Virus record (IMG/VR): IMGVR_UViG_3300044637_002990
Coordinates: 1 to 25,902 of that record
Length of the DNA: 25,902 nucleotides
Reading direction: 5' to 3' (one strand)
Source of the DNA: a virus
Numbering within the stretch: position 1 is the first letter of the stretch; the number at the start of each line of letters is the position of its first letter. This document shows, one piece after another, positions 410-20,902 of this stretch. The notes below the pieces were generated by a model, which worked only from the letters and a program-made list of their open reading frames with translations, was not told the origin of the DNA and did no database searches. A program made the translations under genes and the position numbers.

Positions 410-1042
410 ATGCAATTTTCAGATTTTCAAATCAATCAAAATTGGAACGATGATATAAAATTAAATTATGAAAAATATTATAGGGAAATTTGGGAAGATA
501 AAGAATATTTCAGGCATGGACTTGAAATAAAAGAAGGCGATGTTGTTTTAGATCTGGGTGCCAGCATTGGATTGTTCTCTTTGCTTGCTCTTGAAAAAAA
601 GGCAAAAAAAATTATTTCATTTGAGTCAAACAAGGAAACTTATCAATATTTGAAAGAAAATTGTAAAAAATATAAAAAAATTACACCTGTAAATGCATTT
701 GTTTGCCACAGAAACGTAAAAGTTACTGATAAAAATGGTTTTATAGAAACAATTGATCTGAAAAAAATCATAGAAAAATTCAAATTATCAAAAATTGATT
801 TTCTTAAATTAGACATTGAAGGATTTGAATTTGCGTTTGTTTTGAATGAGTCTGATGAAAACATTAAGATGGTTAAACAATGGGCGATAGAGGTTCATAC
901 TTGTGGTTTATTTTGCGATAAAACAAAGGAATGTGAATTTGCTATTGGAATGGTTGATAAATTTGCCAAATTAGGTTATGAATGCATTCTTGAAAAATTA
1001 CACTTAGAAACTTGTTGTTACATGATTTACGCCAAAAAATAG
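410..1042 (+). CDS. FkbM-family SAM-dependent methyltransferase
   Basis: About 210 residues. The SAM-binding motif I reads VVLDLGASIG, motif II ends in the acidic FES, and the segment KLDIEGFE is the hallmark of the FkbM (Methyltransf_21) family, which typically O-methylates sugars or polyketides. The start is set at ATG 410 because AAGGGG at 397-402 lies at normal spacing; an upstream GTG/TTG-type start would run through the terminator stem. There is no signal peptide, so it is cytosolic. The gene is very AT-rich. The target is unknown: plausible substrates are host surface glycans or a modified sugar made by the phage. The GT2-like protein at 12139-13110 is the only other glycan-related gene here. 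The family call is firm and the substrate is not known. Confidence 0.85.
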   Translation: MQFSDFQINQNWNDDIKLNYEKYYREIWEDKEYFRHGLEIKEGDVVLDLGASIGLFSLLALEKKAKKIISFESNKETYQYLKENCKKYKKITPVNAFVCHRNVKVTDKNGFIETIDLKKIIEKFKLSKIDFLKLDIEGFEFAFVLNESDENIKMVKQWAIEVHTCGLFCDKTKECEFAIGMVDKFAKLGYECILEKLHLETCCYMIYAKK

Positions 1043-1110: not shown

Positions 1111-2748
1111 ATGTCATGCAAGTACATCATTGTGGTTGGTGGAGTTTATAGCGGTACTGGCAAAGGTGTTTCTGCTGCCAGTATTGCGCTTCTTCTTAAA
1201 TTTCGGGGCCATCGCATTGATTTAATTAAATTTGATCCATATTTTAATCTTAATGCTGGTATTCTTGCGCCCAAAGAGCATGGGGAATGCTTTCTTTGTG
1301 ATGATGGCACCGAGACAGATCTTGATCTTGGCCATTACGAGAGAATTGCAGGCATCAGTATGAATAAAAACAACATTTGCACTCAAGGAACTTTATTGTT
1401 TGAGTTGAATGAAGAACAACAATTAGGCAAGTATCTTGGGCAAACGATTCAAGTAAGTCCTCATGTCACAGATAAAATTCAAGAAAGATTGCTTAATCTT
1501 GGGGCAAACAAAGATATAGTTATTGCAGAAATTGGAGGAACTGTTGGCGATAGTGAAAGCTATGCTTTTTTTGAAGCTATGCGACAGTTTAAGCAAAGGC
1601 TTAAAGATGACGTTTTAATTGTTATGGTGGCACCAATCATTTGGGTAGATACCATTAAAGAATTTAAATCTAAACCATTACAATTTGCCGTTAAAGAATT
1701 GCAACGTCATGGTTTGCAAGCAGATTTAATTTTTTGTCGCACAGGATTGCAATTGTCAGAGAAAATTTTGAGTAAGGTTAGTCAACTTACAAACGTGAAA
1801 AGAGAATGTATTTTTGAAGCTATTGATGTGGCAAGCATTTATCAAATTCCTTTAGAATATTACAATCGTCATGTTGACGATCTTTTTGTTGATTTATTTA
1901 GATTAAGCAGAAGTGCTTGCCGTATTCATAAGTACCGTGAAGTTGTTGAAAAATATCTTGGAAATCAGGCGGAAGCAGTGCAAATAGGTGTTTTTGGAAA
2001 ATATGATAATTGTGATGAAGCATATATGAGTCTAAAAGAAGCATTGATGCATGCTGGCGTGGCAAATGATGTAAGAGTGAATATTCGTTGGATCAAAGCA
2101 GAAGAGCTTGAAAAATATAAAGACAGTCGGGGTCTTCACAAATATTTTGAAGGTTTAGATGGAATTGTTATTCCCGGTGGATTTGATAATCGTGGAATAG
2201 AAGGAAAAATTAAAGCAATTCAATATGTTCGTGAAAAGAAAATTCCATTTCTTGGAATATGTCTTGGCTTGCAAATGGCCGTAGTTGAATTTGCTAGGCA
2301 TGTTTGTGGTTTTGAAAATGCAAATAGTATTGAATTCAACACGCAAACAGAGTATCCAGTTGTTCATTTTATTGAAGGACAGCAGCAACTTGAGAAAAAA
2401 TCTGCAAGTATGCGTTTGGGGTCATATGAATGTGAATTAATTAAAGATTCATTGGCTTTTGAACTTTATAATTCAAAGTTGATTAAAGAAAGACATCGTC
2501 ATCGATATGAAGTTAATCCCAAATATGTTGAAGATTATCGGAAAAAAGGCTTTCGTGTTTCTGGGATCAGTTCAATTTCTGGACTAATTGAAATTATGGA
2601 ATTAGAAAAAACAATTCATCCATATTTTATTGGCACACAAGCTCATCCAGAATTTCGCTCGCATCTTATGGCAAGTTCTCCTCTTTTTAGAGGACTTATT
2701 GCTGCTGCAAATAAAAATAAAAACGCTTTATCTATAAATAAATCATGA
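1111..2748 (+). CDS. pyrG: CTP synthase (glutamine-hydrolysing)
   Basis: A complete 545-residue enzyme, the same length as the bacterial one, converting UTP to CTP with ATP and glutamine. The synthetase domain has the P-loop GGVYSGTGKG near residue 15, then KFDPYFN, the Mg/ATP region DDGTETDLDLGHYER and GGTVGDSES. The class I glutaminase domain has its nucleophile in GICLGLQ (Cys384) and the His512/Glu514 pair in AHPEF, so both half-reactions look intact. The start is ATG 1111, with AGAGGTGA at 1098-1105 as ribosome binding site; the GTG at 1102 lies inside that site. A hairpin, CTGCTT 1076-1081 with AAGCAG 1094-1099, overlaps the left edge of the site and could modulate initiation. The gene ends in an ATGA overlap with the next gene. 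CTP synthase is uncommon in phages; beside ribonucleotide reductase it suggests expansion of the cytidine nucleotide pool. Confidence 0.96.
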   Translation: MSCKYIIVVGGVYSGTGKGVSAASIALLLKFRGHRIDLIKFDPYFNLNAGILAPKEHGECFLCDDGTETDLDLGHYERIAGISMNKNNICTQGTLLFELNEEQQLGKYLGQTIQVSPHVTDKIQERLLNLGANKDIVIAEIGGTVGDSESYAFFEAMRQFKQRLKDDVLIVMVAPIIWVDTIKEFKSKPLQFAVKELQRHGLQADLIFCRTGLQLSEKILSKVSQLTNVKRECIFEAIDVASIYQIPLEYYNRHVDDLFVDLFRLSRSACRIHKYREVVEKYLGNQAEAVQIGVFGKYDNCDEAYMSLKEALMHAGVANDVRVNIRWIKAEELEKYKDSRGLHKYFEGLDGIVIPGGFDNRGIEGKIKAIQYVREKKIPFLGICLGLQMAVVEFARHVCGFENANSIEFNTQTEYPVVHFIEGQQQLEKKSASMRLGSYECELIKDSLAFELYNSKLIKERHRHRYEVNPKYVEDYRKKGFRVSGISSISGLIEIMELEKTIHPYFIGTQAHPEFRSHLMASSPLFRGLIAAANKNKNALSINKS

Positions 2749-3329
2749 GATCTAAAGAATTTATGCTTAGCTTCAAATCTTTCCTTATAAATGAGACGCA
2801 AGTTTATCTCGCTCAAAAAGTTGGCGATATCTTAGCGGCTGTTCAAGAATTGCGAGATGATTCCCAAAACATGGGAACTCGTGATCTTACTAACTATTCA
2901 ATGCGAATAGTTAATCTTATAAGAAGAGTTTTGCATAGTAGTTGGCCAAAAGAAGAGCGAAACAGTTTAATTGCTTTGCAAAAAGTTGGCGTTGCCTTAA
3001 TGAAAGCTATTGATGAAAAAAGTGACTTGCCAGCAACAATTTCGGCAGTAGCCGGAACATTAGAAAAATTAGTTGAAGATTTAGGCGTTCCAATTAATAA
3101 ATTAAATCCAACCGAATCACCTAAAAATCAACCCCAAGAAGATAAGTCTACAAGTCCTACTGAAAATCAACCGCCAGAACCGGCTCCCGGTCCTGCAAAC
3201 GATAAAATGCCACCAGATCCTCAGCAAATGGCATCTGCTGGGCAAATTACACCTCCAGTTGGAGGTACGGGACAAGATATGGCAGCACCACCTTTAGGTG
3301 GATCTACAGGCGGACTTGATGCTTTTTAA
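2745..3329 (+). CDS. Unknown protein with T4 capsid-targeting-like N-terminus and Pro/Gly-rich tail
   Basis: No family recognised. The ATG at 2745 overlaps the CTP synthase stop (ATGA) and has no Shine-Dalgarno site, so translation is probably coupled; a second ATG at 2763 would give an N-terminus MLSFKSFLINE. Residues ~20-115 look helical, and the last ~75 residues are low-complexity, rich in Pro, Gln and Gly. The 2763 N-terminus resembles the T4 internal-protein capsid-targeting pattern MKTYQEFIAE, and I-N-E followed by T fits the (I/L)-x-E site cut by the T4 prohead protease gp21. The same layout occurs in the Ala/Pro-rich protein at 19944-20351. I infer a packaged or prohead-core protein; this is unproven. 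A TATAAATA octamer sits at 2733-2740, just upstream. Confidence 0.75.
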   Translation: MRSKEFMLSFKSFLINETQVYLAQKVGDILAAVQELRDDSQNMGTRDLTNYSMRIVNLIRRVLHSSWPKEERNSLIALQKVGVALMKAIDEKSDLPATISAVAGTLEKLVEDLGVPINKLNPTESPKNQPQEDKSTSPTENQPPEPAPGPANDKMPPDPQQMASAGQITPPVGGTGQDMAAPPLGGSTGGLDAF

Positions 3330-3334
3330 TATAA

Positions 3335-3348
3335 AGAGGTGAGTTATT
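3335..3348 (+). promoter_or_regulatory. Ribosome binding site and ATT start codon of the amidotransferase
   Basis: AGAGGTGA at 3335-3342 is identical to the site before CTP synthase. Three bases later comes ATT (3346), directly followed by codons for C-G-L-A-G-F-I-G. Class II amidotransferases begin Met-Cys-Gly-[IL]-[AV]-G and need that Cys, so ATT is in the exact place of ATG. The frame has a stop at 3340-3342 and no ATG, GTG or TTG before 3415. Confidence 0.7.
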
Positions 3349-4455
3349 TGTGGACTAGCAGGATTCATTGGTGAATCCAAAAAACCAACAATCAGTTACA
3401 ATGTAATCACCAGATTGTTTGAAAAAAGTGATTCTAGAGGAGTTGACGCCAGTGGTTATTGGGGCGTCGAAACAGGTTCTAATGGCTCAATTGTTTTTCA
3501 CAAAGAACCTATTCGCTCAAGAGACTTTGTGAAAAAAGATAATTGGCAAAATATCAGCAAAATTAATCTTAATATTTTATTGTGCCACTCTAGAGGTGCT
3601 TCTAAAGGTTTCGGAGATCCATTACAAAATAAAAATAATCATCCTTTCATTAATTCAGATGAATCTTTAGCTTTGATTCATAATGGACGTATTGATGATT
3701 GTGAATATCACGCTCTTAAAAAAAAATATGCCGTTTATTCTGATTGTGATTCAGAAATACTTTTAAGAATTATTGAAAATTCAGAAAACAACCAAGATGA
3801 AAATGATTACTCTGAAATTATTTCAGGAATAAAAGAAGTTTATAGCTTAATCAACGAAGGTCATATGGCTGTTGCTGTTGGCAAAAAAGGCAATGATAGT
3901 GAAAGACACCTGTGGCTGTTTAGAAATCAACACAGGCCATTGTGGGTGATTGACACAAGAGAATCATTAGGACAAGTTTTTTTTATTTCTGACCCTAATA
4001 TATGGGAAGAGTCAATCAGAGACAGCAACTTATTCAAAGGCATCGCAAAGTCTCACAAATTAATTGAAATTCCAGAAAATCAAATTTGGTATTTTAAAAC
4101 ATCTTGTGATATAAAGCACATAAAAAGTGTTGTTAAGTTTGAAGTCGAAAAAGGCGAAAAAAAACCATGGAATTTTGATGGTAAAAGATTTGAATTGAAA
4201 AATGTTAAAGTTGAACAACCAATTCCTTTAAAAGAAAAAAAAGAAATAATGGAAAATAATTTTTTAAACTTGCGCCTTGATCTTTTGGATAAAAAATGCG
4301 ATCAAATTATTGATGTCGTAAACAATATTAGACAATATGCTGAACAATTGGCTGTTGAAAATTCTATAAGTAAAATTGAATATGAAGCACTTTTAGCTGA
4401 TATGGAAAGTAAAAGAAAAGAATTAGAGGAGATGAGTTTGATTATAAATCGATAA
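3346..4455 (+). CDS. Class II (Ntn) glutamine amidotransferase domain protein
   Basis: Read from ATT 3346, the 369-residue product starts (M)CGLAGFIGE, with the N-terminal nucleophile Cys of the GlmS/PurF/AsnB amidotransferase fold. Other family features follow: RGVDASGYWG, LCHSRGAS (equivalent of CHTRWATHG in GlmS), HPF, ALIHNGRIDD (the HNG glutamine-binding motif) and a DSEILLRIIE segment. A start at TTG 3415 would remove the catalytic Cys. The glutaminase part covers roughly residues 1-240. No sugar isomerase, phosphoribosyltransferase or asparagine synthase domain follows; instead the last ~80 residues form a charged coiled-coil-like tail. The ammonia acceptor is therefore unknown and may be a partner protein. 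It shares a strand, and probably a transcript, with CTP synthase. The fold is confident, the pathway is not. Confidence 0.85.
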   Translation: MCGLAGFIGESKKPTISYNVITRLFEKSDSRGVDASGYWGVETGSNGSIVFHKEPIRSRDFVKKDNWQNISKINLNILLCHSRGASKGFGDPLQNKNNHPFINSDESLALIHNGRIDDCEYHALKKKYAVYSDCDSEILLRIIENSENNQDENDYSEIISGIKEVYSLINEGHMAVAVGKKGNDSERHLWLFRNQHRPLWVIDTRESLGQVFFISDPNIWEESIRDSNLFKGIAKSHKLIEIPENQIWYFKTSCDIKHIKSVVKFEVEKGEKKPWNFDGKRFELKNVKVEQPIPLKEKKEIMENNFLNLRLDLLDKKCDQIIDVVNNIRQYAEQLAVENSISKIEYEALLADMESKRKELEEMSLIINR

Positions 4456-4471
4456 ACTACTCAATTAAATC

Positions 4472-5014
4472 ATGAAACACGACTTTGAAGAATTTGATGA
4501 TTTTGTTCAAGACGATAGTTTGCTTGCAAACAAAAAAAAGAAAAAAGTAAATGGCAAGAAAAAAGGTAGCCGTACAGAACTTGATTTGACTAAAATTTTA
4601 ACAAAACGATTTGGGCAACCTTTTAGCAGAACTGTTGCGTCTGGCGCTCGATGGAGTCAAGCAGTGCTTCCAGACCATGCACGAGAAGTTTTTTCTGGCG
4701 ACATAGTTGTTATGAAAGGTTTTAAATTTGTCATTGAATCTAAAGGTGGTTACGATAGTATTGACATGAGTTCTGTTTTCACACATGGCAATAGTGAATT
4801 AGATAGTTTTTTAAATCAAGCTACTAATGACAGCAAAAGATGCAATAGAAAACCTATGATGTGTTGGAAAAAAACTAGAAAACCTTGGTTAGCATTTATT
4901 TTAACAGAAGAATTAATGGGAAAAGAATTTGAATACTCAATGAAATACCGTGAATGGACAGCAGTTGCTCTTGATAATCTTTTAAAACTTGAAGATTCAT
5001 TTTTTATAGATTAA
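4472..5014 (+). CDS. Putative PD-(D/E)XK endonuclease (Holliday-junction-resolvase-like)
   Basis: 180 residues with a Lys-rich segment at ~21-33 followed by a probable nuclease core. The order of likely catalytic residues, Glu36 in RTELDL, a conserved-looking RTVASGAR segment, Asp77 in SGDIVV, then Glu89-Ser-Lys91 in FVIESKGG, matches the E...D...ExK layout of Hjc-type resolvases and other PD-(D/E)XK enzymes. Such enzymes cut branched or replicating phage DNA. The start ATG at 4472 has no clear Shine-Dalgarno site and follows the amidotransferase stop by 16 bp; a T4-late-promoter-like TATAAATC lies at 4443-4450. The gene overlaps the convergent minus-strand gene by 4 bp. The superfamily is likely and the exact activity is inferred. 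Confidence 0.65.
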   Translation: MKHDFEEFDDFVQDDSLLANKKKKKVNGKKKGSRTELDLTKILTKRFGQPFSRTVASGARWSQAVLPDHAREVFSGDIVVMKGFKFVIESKGGYDSIDMSSVFTHGNSELDSFLNQATNDSKRCNRKPMMCWKKTRKPWLAFILTEELMGKEFEYSMKYREWTAVALDNLLKLEDSFFID

Positions 5015-5666: not shown

Positions 5667-6989
5667 TTATTCATAATCTTCTAAATTATATATGTTGCAA
5701 TCTTTGTGAATAAAATTTTTAATTCCACCTGCTGTTAAAAACCAATGCCACTTGGCAGGTTGTGCCGGATAAACATTATCGCCGTATCCATCTGAAATAA
5801 CAAATATTGCTTGTGGATATTTATTATTTTCTTTTTTTATAATATTTTGAATATGTTGTTCAATAATCTTAAATGATGTGCCTCCACCGCCATAAATTTT
5901 ACGACTTTCTAAAGTTGTTTCTTCAACTCTTGTGTCAAAACAAAAAAGACGCACTTTAAATCTTTTTTCTGGAATAGATTCAGCAGCAGAAAAGAACCGA
6001 TCTTTTAAATCCCAACAAGAACCACTGGTGTCTAAAAAAAACCAAACATCAATTTTTGATTCTTCATCGTAATAATCATCGTTTTCCATTTCACTTGGTA
6101 AAATCATAGTTCTAGGCAACATTGTCATGCGCCTATTCATTCTTGCCCATTGTTCTATATCTTTATCATTTTCACTAATGTGGCGAAGCACCCATTTTTT
6201 TATAATTGATTCCCACTTGCGTTTTTTAACAGGCTTGGAGCCATTAGAAAACACCCACTGCCCACCAGTACCTTGACCAGAATCTTTTTCTTGTTCTTTT
6301 TTTTGAAAATGTTTTTTAATTGTTGATTTTAAACTTTCTTTTTCTTCATCATTCATTTTTTCATCAAGATAATCAATCATTTTTTCCCATTTTCCTGATG
6401 CAAGCCCTTCATGATCATCAACAGTCGATGGAGCATTGCTTCCATCACCCATTCCCCCATCACCATAAGTTTTTTCAAATAAATTCATGTAGTATTCAAA
6501 CATTTCATTGTCGTTTGGAATCACATCACGGTCTTTAAAAACCGTATCTACCCAACAATATTCTTCTGCATTTGTTATGTCTTGTCGATTGAAGCCAAAA
6601 TTACGCACCAAAGTGTGATTAACCACAATGTCCATGGCTGTATTTGCAGCCATGCCATTTACACTGGCAATAGCTTGTCTGGCACGCAATCCATGATTAA
6701 GAATTATATGTAGAGATTCGTGACAAATAACAAATAATTTATTTTTAAAATCTAAACTTTTCCAAAACAATGGATTAAATTTGAACAAAACAAAACGACC
6801 TTCTTCGTCAAAATTAACACATGCAGTAGAAATGCTTTCATCAAATATTGGCTTACCCATTTGCCAAACTTGATAAAAAACCGCATGGTGCGGTTCTAAA
6901 GCATTACTGATTTCAAACCATTCTTCATTTGTAATACGGATGTTGTGAGCTTTTGAAACAGCAACATCCGTTGTATTATTATTGCTCAT
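5667..6989 (-). CDS. Metallopeptidase-like / VWA domain protein (DUF2201 type)
   Basis: 440 residues in two domains. The N-terminal part has an intact zinc-peptidase motif at residues 90-99, HESLHIILNH (HExxHxxxxH), followed by the NTAMDIVVN segment usual for this family. The C-terminal part (~313-440) is a von Willebrand A fold with a complete metal-ion adhesion site: DTSGS at 320-324, Thr in GGGGTSF near 371 and Asp400 in VISDGYGD. A charged, Gly-rich linker lies at ~180-255. VWA proteins of this kind act as substrate adaptors for MoxR AAA+ ATPases in complex assembly or metal insertion. It overlaps the upstream MoxR gene by 11 bp, which supports a stoichiometric pair. Both catalytic motif sets look intact, so protease activity is possible but not shown. 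Confidence 0.88.
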   Translation of the reverse strand: MSNNNTTDVAVSKAHNIRITNEEWFEISNALEPHHAVFYQVWQMGKPIFDESISTACVNFDEEGRFVLFKFNPLFWKSLDFKNKLFVICHESLHIILNHGLRARQAIASVNGMAANTAMDIVVNHTLVRNFGFNRQDITNAEEYCWVDTVFKDRDVIPNDNEMFEYYMNLFEKTYGDGGMGDGSNAPSTVDDHEGLASGKWEKMIDYLDEKMNDEEKESLKSTIKKHFQKKEQEKDSGQGTGGQWVFSNGSKPVKKRKWESIIKKWVLRHISENDKDIEQWARMNRRMTMLPRTMILPSEMENDDYYDEESKIDVWFFLDTSGSCWDLKDRFFSAAESIPEKRFKVRLFCFDTRVEETTLESRKIYGGGGTSFKIIEQHIQNIIKKENNKYPQAIFVISDGYGDNVYPAQPAKWHWFLTAGGIKNFIHKDCNIYNLEDYE

Positions 6990-19812: not shown

Positions 19813-20125
19813 AATTAAAAAAAGAGAAAACAGAATCATCCCGTATATTGCAGGAGATCCTGTTTCTTCTTTTAAAAAACCGGTTTTTCCTTTTCGTTTT
19901 TTATCGAAAATTAATTGCCCAAATTTAAATAGATTGCAAAATTTTACCTTTGAGGAGGCGCACCAGCAGCAGGAGCCGCAGGTGCAGCAGGAGCAGCAGC
20001 AGGAGCAGCAGGAGCGGCTGGTGCAGCAGCCGCAGGGCGACCTGCTGCTCCTGCCTTCGGTGGAGCCTCTAGTGAGCCAAGAAAATTTTTCACTTTCTCT
20101 TGATTCTCAGGACTCAGCTTGTTGA
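19799..20125 (+). CDS. Doubtful ORF overlapping the Ala/Pro-rich gene antisense
   Basis: ATG 19799 has AAAGGAAAA upstream and lies inside the end of the DUF6065-like gene. The first ~50 codons (MKSFKIKKRENRII onward) use AT-rich codons like real genes here. From ~19944 the frame is only the antisense of the low-complexity Ala/Pro-rich gene and turns into Gln/Glu repeats. Either a short real gene has lost its stop, or the frame is open by chance. Its N-terminus MKSFK resembles the capsid-targeting-like starts elsewhere in the window. Confidence 0.3.
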   Translation: MKSFKIKKRENRIIPYIAGDPVSSFKKPVFPFRFLSKINCPNLNRLQNFTFEEAHQQQEPQVQQEQQQEQQERLVQQPQGDLLLLPSVEPLVSQENFSLSLDSQDSAC

Positions 20126-20351
20126 GTCCTGCTTTTGCGGCAGCAGCAATTTTGTTTACCTCTGCTTGGTCTTGAGGTTGGGGAGGACTTGTTCCTGCTG
20201 CACCAACAGCAGGTTTTGCACCACCAGCAGCAGCAGGGGCGGCACCAGCAGCGGGAGCAGGAGCGCCCGGAGCGGCAGGAGCAGCAGGAGCGCCCGGAGC
20301 GGTAGCTGCTTCTTTTTGAATCTGAAGGAAAAACTCATAGAAAGATTTCAT
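19944..20351 (-). CDS. Ala/Pro-rich low-complexity protein with capsid-targeting-like N-terminus
   Basis: 135 residues. N-terminus MKSFYEFFLQIQKEA, then two Ala/Pro/Gly-rich blocks (APAAPAAPG-type repeats, ~residues 15-55 and 98-130) around a central helical part with AEVNKIAAAAKAGLNKLSPENQEKVKNFLG. GAGG lies before ATG 20351; an upstream ATG at 20363 overlaps the neck stop (ATGA) and is the alternative start. The DNA is markedly GC-rich against its AT-rich surroundings. The N-terminus resembles the T4 internal-protein signal MKTYQEFIAEA. The setting among neck genes supports a virion or prohead-core protein; function inferred only. Confidence 0.75.
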   Translation of the reverse strand: MKSFYEFFLQIQKEAATAPGAPAAPAAPGAPAPAAGAAPAAAGGAKPAVGAAGTSPPQPQDQAEVNKIAAAAKAGLNKLSPENQEKVKNFLGSLEAPPKAGAAGRPAAAAPAAPAAPAAAPAAPAAPAAGAPPQR

Positions 20352-20359
20352 ATACAACC

Positions 20360-20902
20360 TCATACAATTTTAATTTTTAAATCTGGTTCCTTTTGTGTTA
20401 CTTTACCATTTCCGGTAACAACATCTTCTTGGAATCTTTGACAGATTAACTCAATCCTCAAAGCGCCCCAAAGTTTAAATTCTCCTAAATTCCTTTGAAC
20501 AATAACCCAGTTTTCTCTTAAATGTGGCGTAAAAAGCCTTGAGCCAATTTTAGGCGGATGACCAACATTTTGTAAAACTGATCGATAATTTAACTCAAAT
20601 TTCATTTCGTCTGGGGCATCGATTCCAAATTGATTCAACATATTTTGACTTGGAATCGGCTCATAAGTACACCACAATTGCACAGGATTATTTGAAAATA
20701 ATTTATTTCTTGCTTCCAAATAAATCGGGTCAATCATATCAGGAGTAATAATAACCTCATAATAAAATATTGGAGAACCCCCACGAATAATCGCCTCTTG
20801 ATCCCACATGTTAAAAAGATCATGTGTACGATCATTAGGATCATACATCTGAACAGAACCTCTTAGTTCATATGGAGTTCCATCACATTTTTTAAGTGCC
20901 AT
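20360..20902 (-). CDS. Neck protein (T4 gp14-like)
   Basis: 180 residues against 256 in T4. After the N-terminal MALKKCDGTPYELRG comes a beta-rich domain with the gp14 order: NQFGIDAPDEMKFELNYRSV (T4: NFGMQVQDEVTLSIN), then P-x-IGSRLFTPHLRENWVIVQ (T4: PKEGDLIYFP...FEINWVE), GEFKLWGALRIELICQRFQ. Gp14 joins the head portal to the tail. AAGGAG precedes ATG 20902. It lies two genes upstream of the gp15-like gene in transcription, with the Ala/Pro-rich gene between them. The similarity is moderate but in line with position. Confidence 0.72.
   Translation of the reverse strand: MALKKCDGTPYELRGSVQMYDPNDRTHDLFNMWDQEAIIRGGSPIFYYEVIITPDMIDPIYLEARNKLFSNNPVQLWCTYEPIPSQNMLNQFGIDAPDEMKFELNYRSVLQNVGHPPKIGSRLFTPHLRENWVIVQRNLGEFKLWGALRIELICQRFQEDVVTGNGKVTQKEPDLKIKIV

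Follow-up and report, generated by a model that had tools for sequence, protein, structure and literature searches.

A conserved and repeatedly evolved ATT as the putative translation start of phage class II glutamine amidotransferase genes

Introduction

The 25.9-kb virus record analysed here (the window), which includes a contractile-tail sheath gene, contains a reading frame in which an ATT codon directly precedes the codon for the catalytic cysteine of a class II glutamine amidotransferase. A first-pass annotation had proposed that translation begins at this ATT and that the start is missed by standard rules. Is the ATT a genuine start, and if so, how would ribosomes use it? From the sequence of the locus and its relatives we assign a probability of roughly 0.78 to the reading in which translation initiates at AUU 3346 and the product is a working class II glutamine amidotransferase of the phage.

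The start site in the window

The features of the locus are as follows.

1111..2748, plus strand: CTP synthase gene (pyrG), with its ATG 5 nt after AGAGGTGA
2745..3329, plus strand: gene for a 194-aa protein of unassigned function with a Pro/Gly-rich tail, immediately 5' of the amidotransferase gene
3335..3342, plus strand: Shine-Dalgarno (SD) sequence AGAGGTGA, read directly from the sequence
3340..3342, plus strand: in-frame TGA stop, two codons 5' of the ATT and overlapping the SD
3346..3348, plus strand: putative ATT start codon, aligned spacing (DtoStart) 14
3346..4455, plus strand: class II glutamine amidotransferase coding sequence, Ntn-hydrolase fold, related to PurF and GlmS
3348..3374, plus strand: out-of-frame TTG, a putative competing start (ATTTG overlap), whose frame ends at a TGA after 8 codons
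3349..3351, plus strand: TGT, codon for the catalytic Cys at the N terminus of the class II amidotransferase
4472..5014, plus strand: PDDEXK_15 phage nuclease gene, immediately 3' of the amidotransferase gene

Positions 3335-3354 of the window read AGAGGTGA, GTT, ATT, TGT, GGA. Direct reading confirmed the ATT at 3346, immediately before the catalytic Cys codon, as well as the earlier claim that neither ATG, GTG nor TTG lies between it and the in-frame stop upstream: the TGA at 3340-3342 leaves GTT (3343-3345) as the sole intervening codon. TGA serves as a stop in this phage, ending pyrG and other genes of the window. Over its 7 nt, GAGGTGA (3336-3342) matches the common bacterial anti-SD perfectly (that of the host may differ), and its GGTG (3338-3341) is separated from the ATT by a gap of 4 nt. 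The first-pass annotation had pyrG using the same site; the identical AGAGGTGA is indeed found there, but the pyrG ATG at 1111 sits 5 nt behind it and not 3. Not until TTG 3415, 23 codons 3' of the ATT, does a canonical start occur in frame. Initiation at this TTG was rejected: it would cost the enzyme its nucleophile, as had been argued before, and the codon is not conserved, the first canonical start falling elsewhere in each relative.

Identity of the enzyme

Read from the ATT, the amidotransferase frame (CGLAGFIGES...) is open to the TAA at 4453-4455, a total of 369 codons including the ATT. Pfam, PHROGs and NCBIfam all group the gene with class II glutamine amidotransferases (PHROG 4736). 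A sequence search of the PDB with the amidotransferase returned no match at E 0.01; an AlphaFold model built from 23 sequences (pLDDT 82) found PurF and GlmS as its best PDB structure matches, with E about 1e-11, the identity to the best solved relatives being about 13-20%. Cys1, encoded directly after the initiator codon, is invariant in all aligned relatives, and across 23 relatives the same holds for R82, N112-G113 and D134 (counting Cys1 as residue 1); we take the latter residues to correspond to the Arg, Asn-Gly and Asp of the GlmS glutamine site. The phage protein thus has in common with PurF, GlmS and PHROG 4736 the N-terminal Cys, the Ntn fold and the conserved Arg, Asn-Gly and Asp, but unlike PurF and GlmS it stands alone, its roughly 369 aa including a helical C-terminal region but lacking a synthase domain. 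Codon-position divergence, fold and conserved catalytic residues show that the protein is under selection.

Conservation and recurrence of the probable ATT start

The family was assembled by IMG/VR searches for phage class II amidotransferases. The first-pass annotation had proposed asking whether homologues carry ATG at position 3346, and the answer depends on distance: the clade of the window retains ATT at 52-69% identity to the window, while more distant relatives start with ATG, GTG or TTG. The ATT is kept in relatives that differ from the window at 45-51% of third codon positions, more than chance would explain, and it occurs independently in contigs from many metagenomes. With GGTG obligatory and the gap free between 2 and 9 nt, a pattern scan yielded 33 amidotransferase loci, with a gap of exactly 4 in 30 ATT and 2 ATC loci and of 5 in a single ATT locus; the remaining matches were not amidotransferase starts. 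When GGTG was not required and a narrower protein motif was used, 22 loci were recovered, all of them within the GGTG set. Scanning bacteria and archaea (about 85 thousand species) with the pattern Ile-CGIAG[FY]IG gave two matches, both non-amidotransferase by context.

On a 54-sequence tree, parsimony requires at least six changes between ATT/ATC and NTG starts, and seven when the start residue is omitted. One pair of close sisters comprises an ATT gene (L037) and an ATG gene (L047), whose ribosome binding sites differ. No convincing ATT start was seen among the other genes of the same contigs, so the ATT start is a property of the amidotransferase gene. ATA is absent at the start position, yet it makes up 38% of internal Ile codons; ATATG would yield an out-of-frame ATG. 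Judged by the aligned genes, several phage lineages have AUU (rarely AUC) in place of AUG at the codon preceding the catalytic Cys, and have retained it.

Shine-Dalgarno geometry

GGTG is present upstream of 25 of 25 distinct ATT/ATC genes as against 2 of 29 relatives with canonical starts; the ATT/ATC set comes in part from the GGTG-requiring pattern, and a protein-based set and the GGTG-free scan agree with it. The gap from GGTG to the start is exactly 4 nt in 24 of the 25 (DtoStart 14) and 5 nt in the other, and the base at -1 is T or C in all 25. The duplex formed by positions -22 to -1 with the common bacterial anti-SD, which may not be that of the hosts, has a mean energy of -12.9 kcal/mol in ATT/ATC genes versus -7.1 kcal/mol in canonical ones (p=4e-10, a value that treats related sequences as independent). 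Restricting the comparison to phylogenetically independent pairs leaves five. All of them show the same trend for GGTG (sign test, p=0.06); for the -1 pyrimidine such pairs give no significant result. Some ATT/ATC genes (those of the L064/L069 group, for example) also possess an AAGGA-type match of equal or greater length, at DtoStart 15. GGTG is uncommon before ATG genes on the same contigs, where 259 genes yielded 14 occurrences, with spacings anywhere from 3 to 14 nt. As in extended SDs of the Staphylococcus aureus type, pairing in the phage genes reaches towards the start at a fixed spacing, the host anti-SD being assumed. Folds of 11 loci had no conserved hairpin at the start in common, and Rfam gave no match.

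The register that puts the ATT at DtoStart 14 puts the out-of-frame TTG at 16. A DtoStart of 14 is the optimum reported for E. coli, where the 5' codon is preferred in AUGUG overlaps with starts at 14 and 16 (PMC9841429). The first-pass annotation had overlooked the fixed GGTG-N4-AT[T/C] register, its recurrence across the family and the out-of-frame TTG at 3348. Its central claim, that the ATT is the true amidotransferase start missed by standard rules, is well supported by conservation, ribosome binding site geometry and fold, and the ATT start of this gene is very likely to be real.

Proposed mechanism and regulation

The best-supported mechanism, we infer, is one in which a register-fixed SD compensates for the AUU and excludes the UUG. 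An extended SD:anti-SD helix, fixed in register, would provide the optimal aligned spacing and hold the AUU in place in the P site. It would make up for the mismatched AUU codon-anticodon pair and prevent initiation at the out-of-frame UUG, which lies two bases 3' (AUUUG overlap). Formylmethionine would be inserted at the AUU and later removed, thereby exposing Cys1. The weak start may limit the amount of the enzyme, which is a potential glutaminase; low enzyme output is likely by analogy with the non-AUG starts of S. aureus, and on the same analogy the earlier suggestion that translation is "deliberately low" seems plausible.

Whether the AUU also acts as a switch is a separate matter. The AUU start of E. 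coli infC is discriminated by IF3, and the phage start recurs in one enzyme family, not in neighbouring genes, both of which are consistent with an IF3-sensitive regulatory role beyond the mere setting of dosage. A static low rate accounts for the sequence equally well, however, and we consider an IF3 switch unlikely. We are similarly doubtful that lineages repeatedly turned ATG to ATT/ATC and fixed an extended SD because the AUUUG overlap is a regulated start, with the choice between AUU and out-of-frame UUG depending on the host's initiation factors or type of ribosome. Were this the case, enzyme output would follow the state of the host.

Alternative starts

Both the GTG found 7 nt upstream of the ATT (GTG NNN YAT YTG) and its register with the ATT, fixed in 24 of 25 genes, could be explained if translation began at this invariant GTG, underwent a +1 shift and gave a short propeptide whose removal freed Cys1; class II amidotransferases with propeptides do exist, examples being PurF of Bacillus and glutamate synthase. 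In most lineages, however, the GTG is not preceded by a separate SD (mean -1.9 kcal/mol upstream). YAT is no slippery codon, the register in which this GGTG pairs with the anti-SD is the optimal one for ATT, and ATG relatives start at exactly the ATT position. This scheme therefore appears very unlikely.

An in-frame TTG or GTG does occur 6-24 codons upstream in a minority of ATT/ATC lineages (L037, L064, L085 and L108, for example), as expected if the frame opened further upstream at a canonical start, the ATT being an ordinary Ile codon and the Cys being exposed by processing. Other lineages have an intervening in-frame stop and no such start. In the window and its nearest relatives this stop is a TGA directly at -2, which for the window refutes an upstream start, barring recoding; if TGA is taken as a sense codon, a canonical upstream start is still missing from about half of the lineages, and none is shared. 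We regard an upstream start as extremely improbable. Two related candidates were rejected: decoding of the TGA as Cys, Sec or Trp (TGA acts as a stop here, and the lineages have no upstream start in common), and a frameshift from the upstream gene, whose relative frame differs in L013 and whose stop precedes the site. Finally, although the records are metagenomic, a sequencing or assembly error is refuted by the ATT in contigs from many metagenomes at 52-69% identity, and gene decay by the intact frame and third-position-biased divergence, so that the chance of either is negligible.

Gene neighbourhood

The order CTP synthase, small protein, amidotransferase, PDDEXK_15 nuclease recurs in relatives; in distant ones the nuclease still adjoins the amidotransferase, and a ribonucleotide reductase upstream replaces the CTP synthase. 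In L043 an S-adenosylmethionine decarboxylase domain (3555-3983) lies directly 5' of the amidotransferase, and in L037 a single ORF (1985-2521) combines a Pfam dUTPase domain with a sub-cut-off intein splicing domain. An FkbM-family methyltransferase gene in the window (410-1042) is by eye nearly identical to the copy in L001 (61-693), unlike the amidotransferases of the two, which share only 64% identity; the contrast suggests recombination. The last 89 amidotransferase residues of IMGVR_UViG_3300032243_001562 (L002 / L028) are 100% identical to those of the window; as this record begins 3' of the start site, it provides no evidence on the ATT. The ORF at 5667-6989 of the window is an HNH endonuclease according to PHROG 1314, a name in conflict with that of the same-position ORF of L064 (5327-6574), which matches the putative metallopeptidase domain DUF2201_N. 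The window also contains a 139-aa Ala/Pro-rich low-complexity ORF on the minus strand (19944-20363). No tRNA genes were found in the window.

Discussion

The ATT examined here is, as far as sequence can tell, a translation start that has been conserved and has evolved repeatedly, and genes that use it are truncated by standard gene finders. Gene callers limited to ATG, GTG and TTG deprive an entire group of phage enzymes of their catalytic Cys. The family further offers a natural, recurrent series of ATG-to-ATT replacements in one gene, and since the ribosome binding site geometry is the same each time, the rules for AUU initiation become directly testable. No earlier report of ATT-started phage amidotransferases was found in searches that covered open-licence papers.

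AUU starts are already known from infC, pcnB and cvfC1, and the phage amidotransferase would be a further variant of that kind. With these genes and ccpN it shares a conserved non-AUG AT[TA] start and a strong or extended SD; it differs from them in being a phage enzyme family in which the start recurs across the tree with one invariant GGTG-N4 register. When infC loci from two phyla were examined, AT[TCA] candidates with strong SDs and mostly a -1 pyrimidine were obtained, their spacing being variable in contrast to the fixed phage register; these are automatic best-SD picks, partly noisy, and many loci gave none. The S. aureus genes infC (AUA), cvfC1 (AUU) and ccpN (AUA) each pair a non-AUG start with an extended SD; in reporters such starts yield about 10% of AUG levels, rising to as much as 30% for ccpN in rich medium (PMC13009471). 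Reduced output has been measured for cvfC1 and ccpN (PMC13009471). The closest parallel to the overlap itself lies in the AUGUG and GUGUG starts of E. coli, among which the Cys-initiated amidotransferases glmS, purF and asnB are listed (PMC9841429). There, as in the phage AUUUG, two starts lie two bases apart in different frames, the in-frame codon at DtoStart 14 and the competitor at 16; what sets the phage overlap apart is that the weaker AUU occupies the in-frame position, with UUG (or CUG) as the putative competitor.
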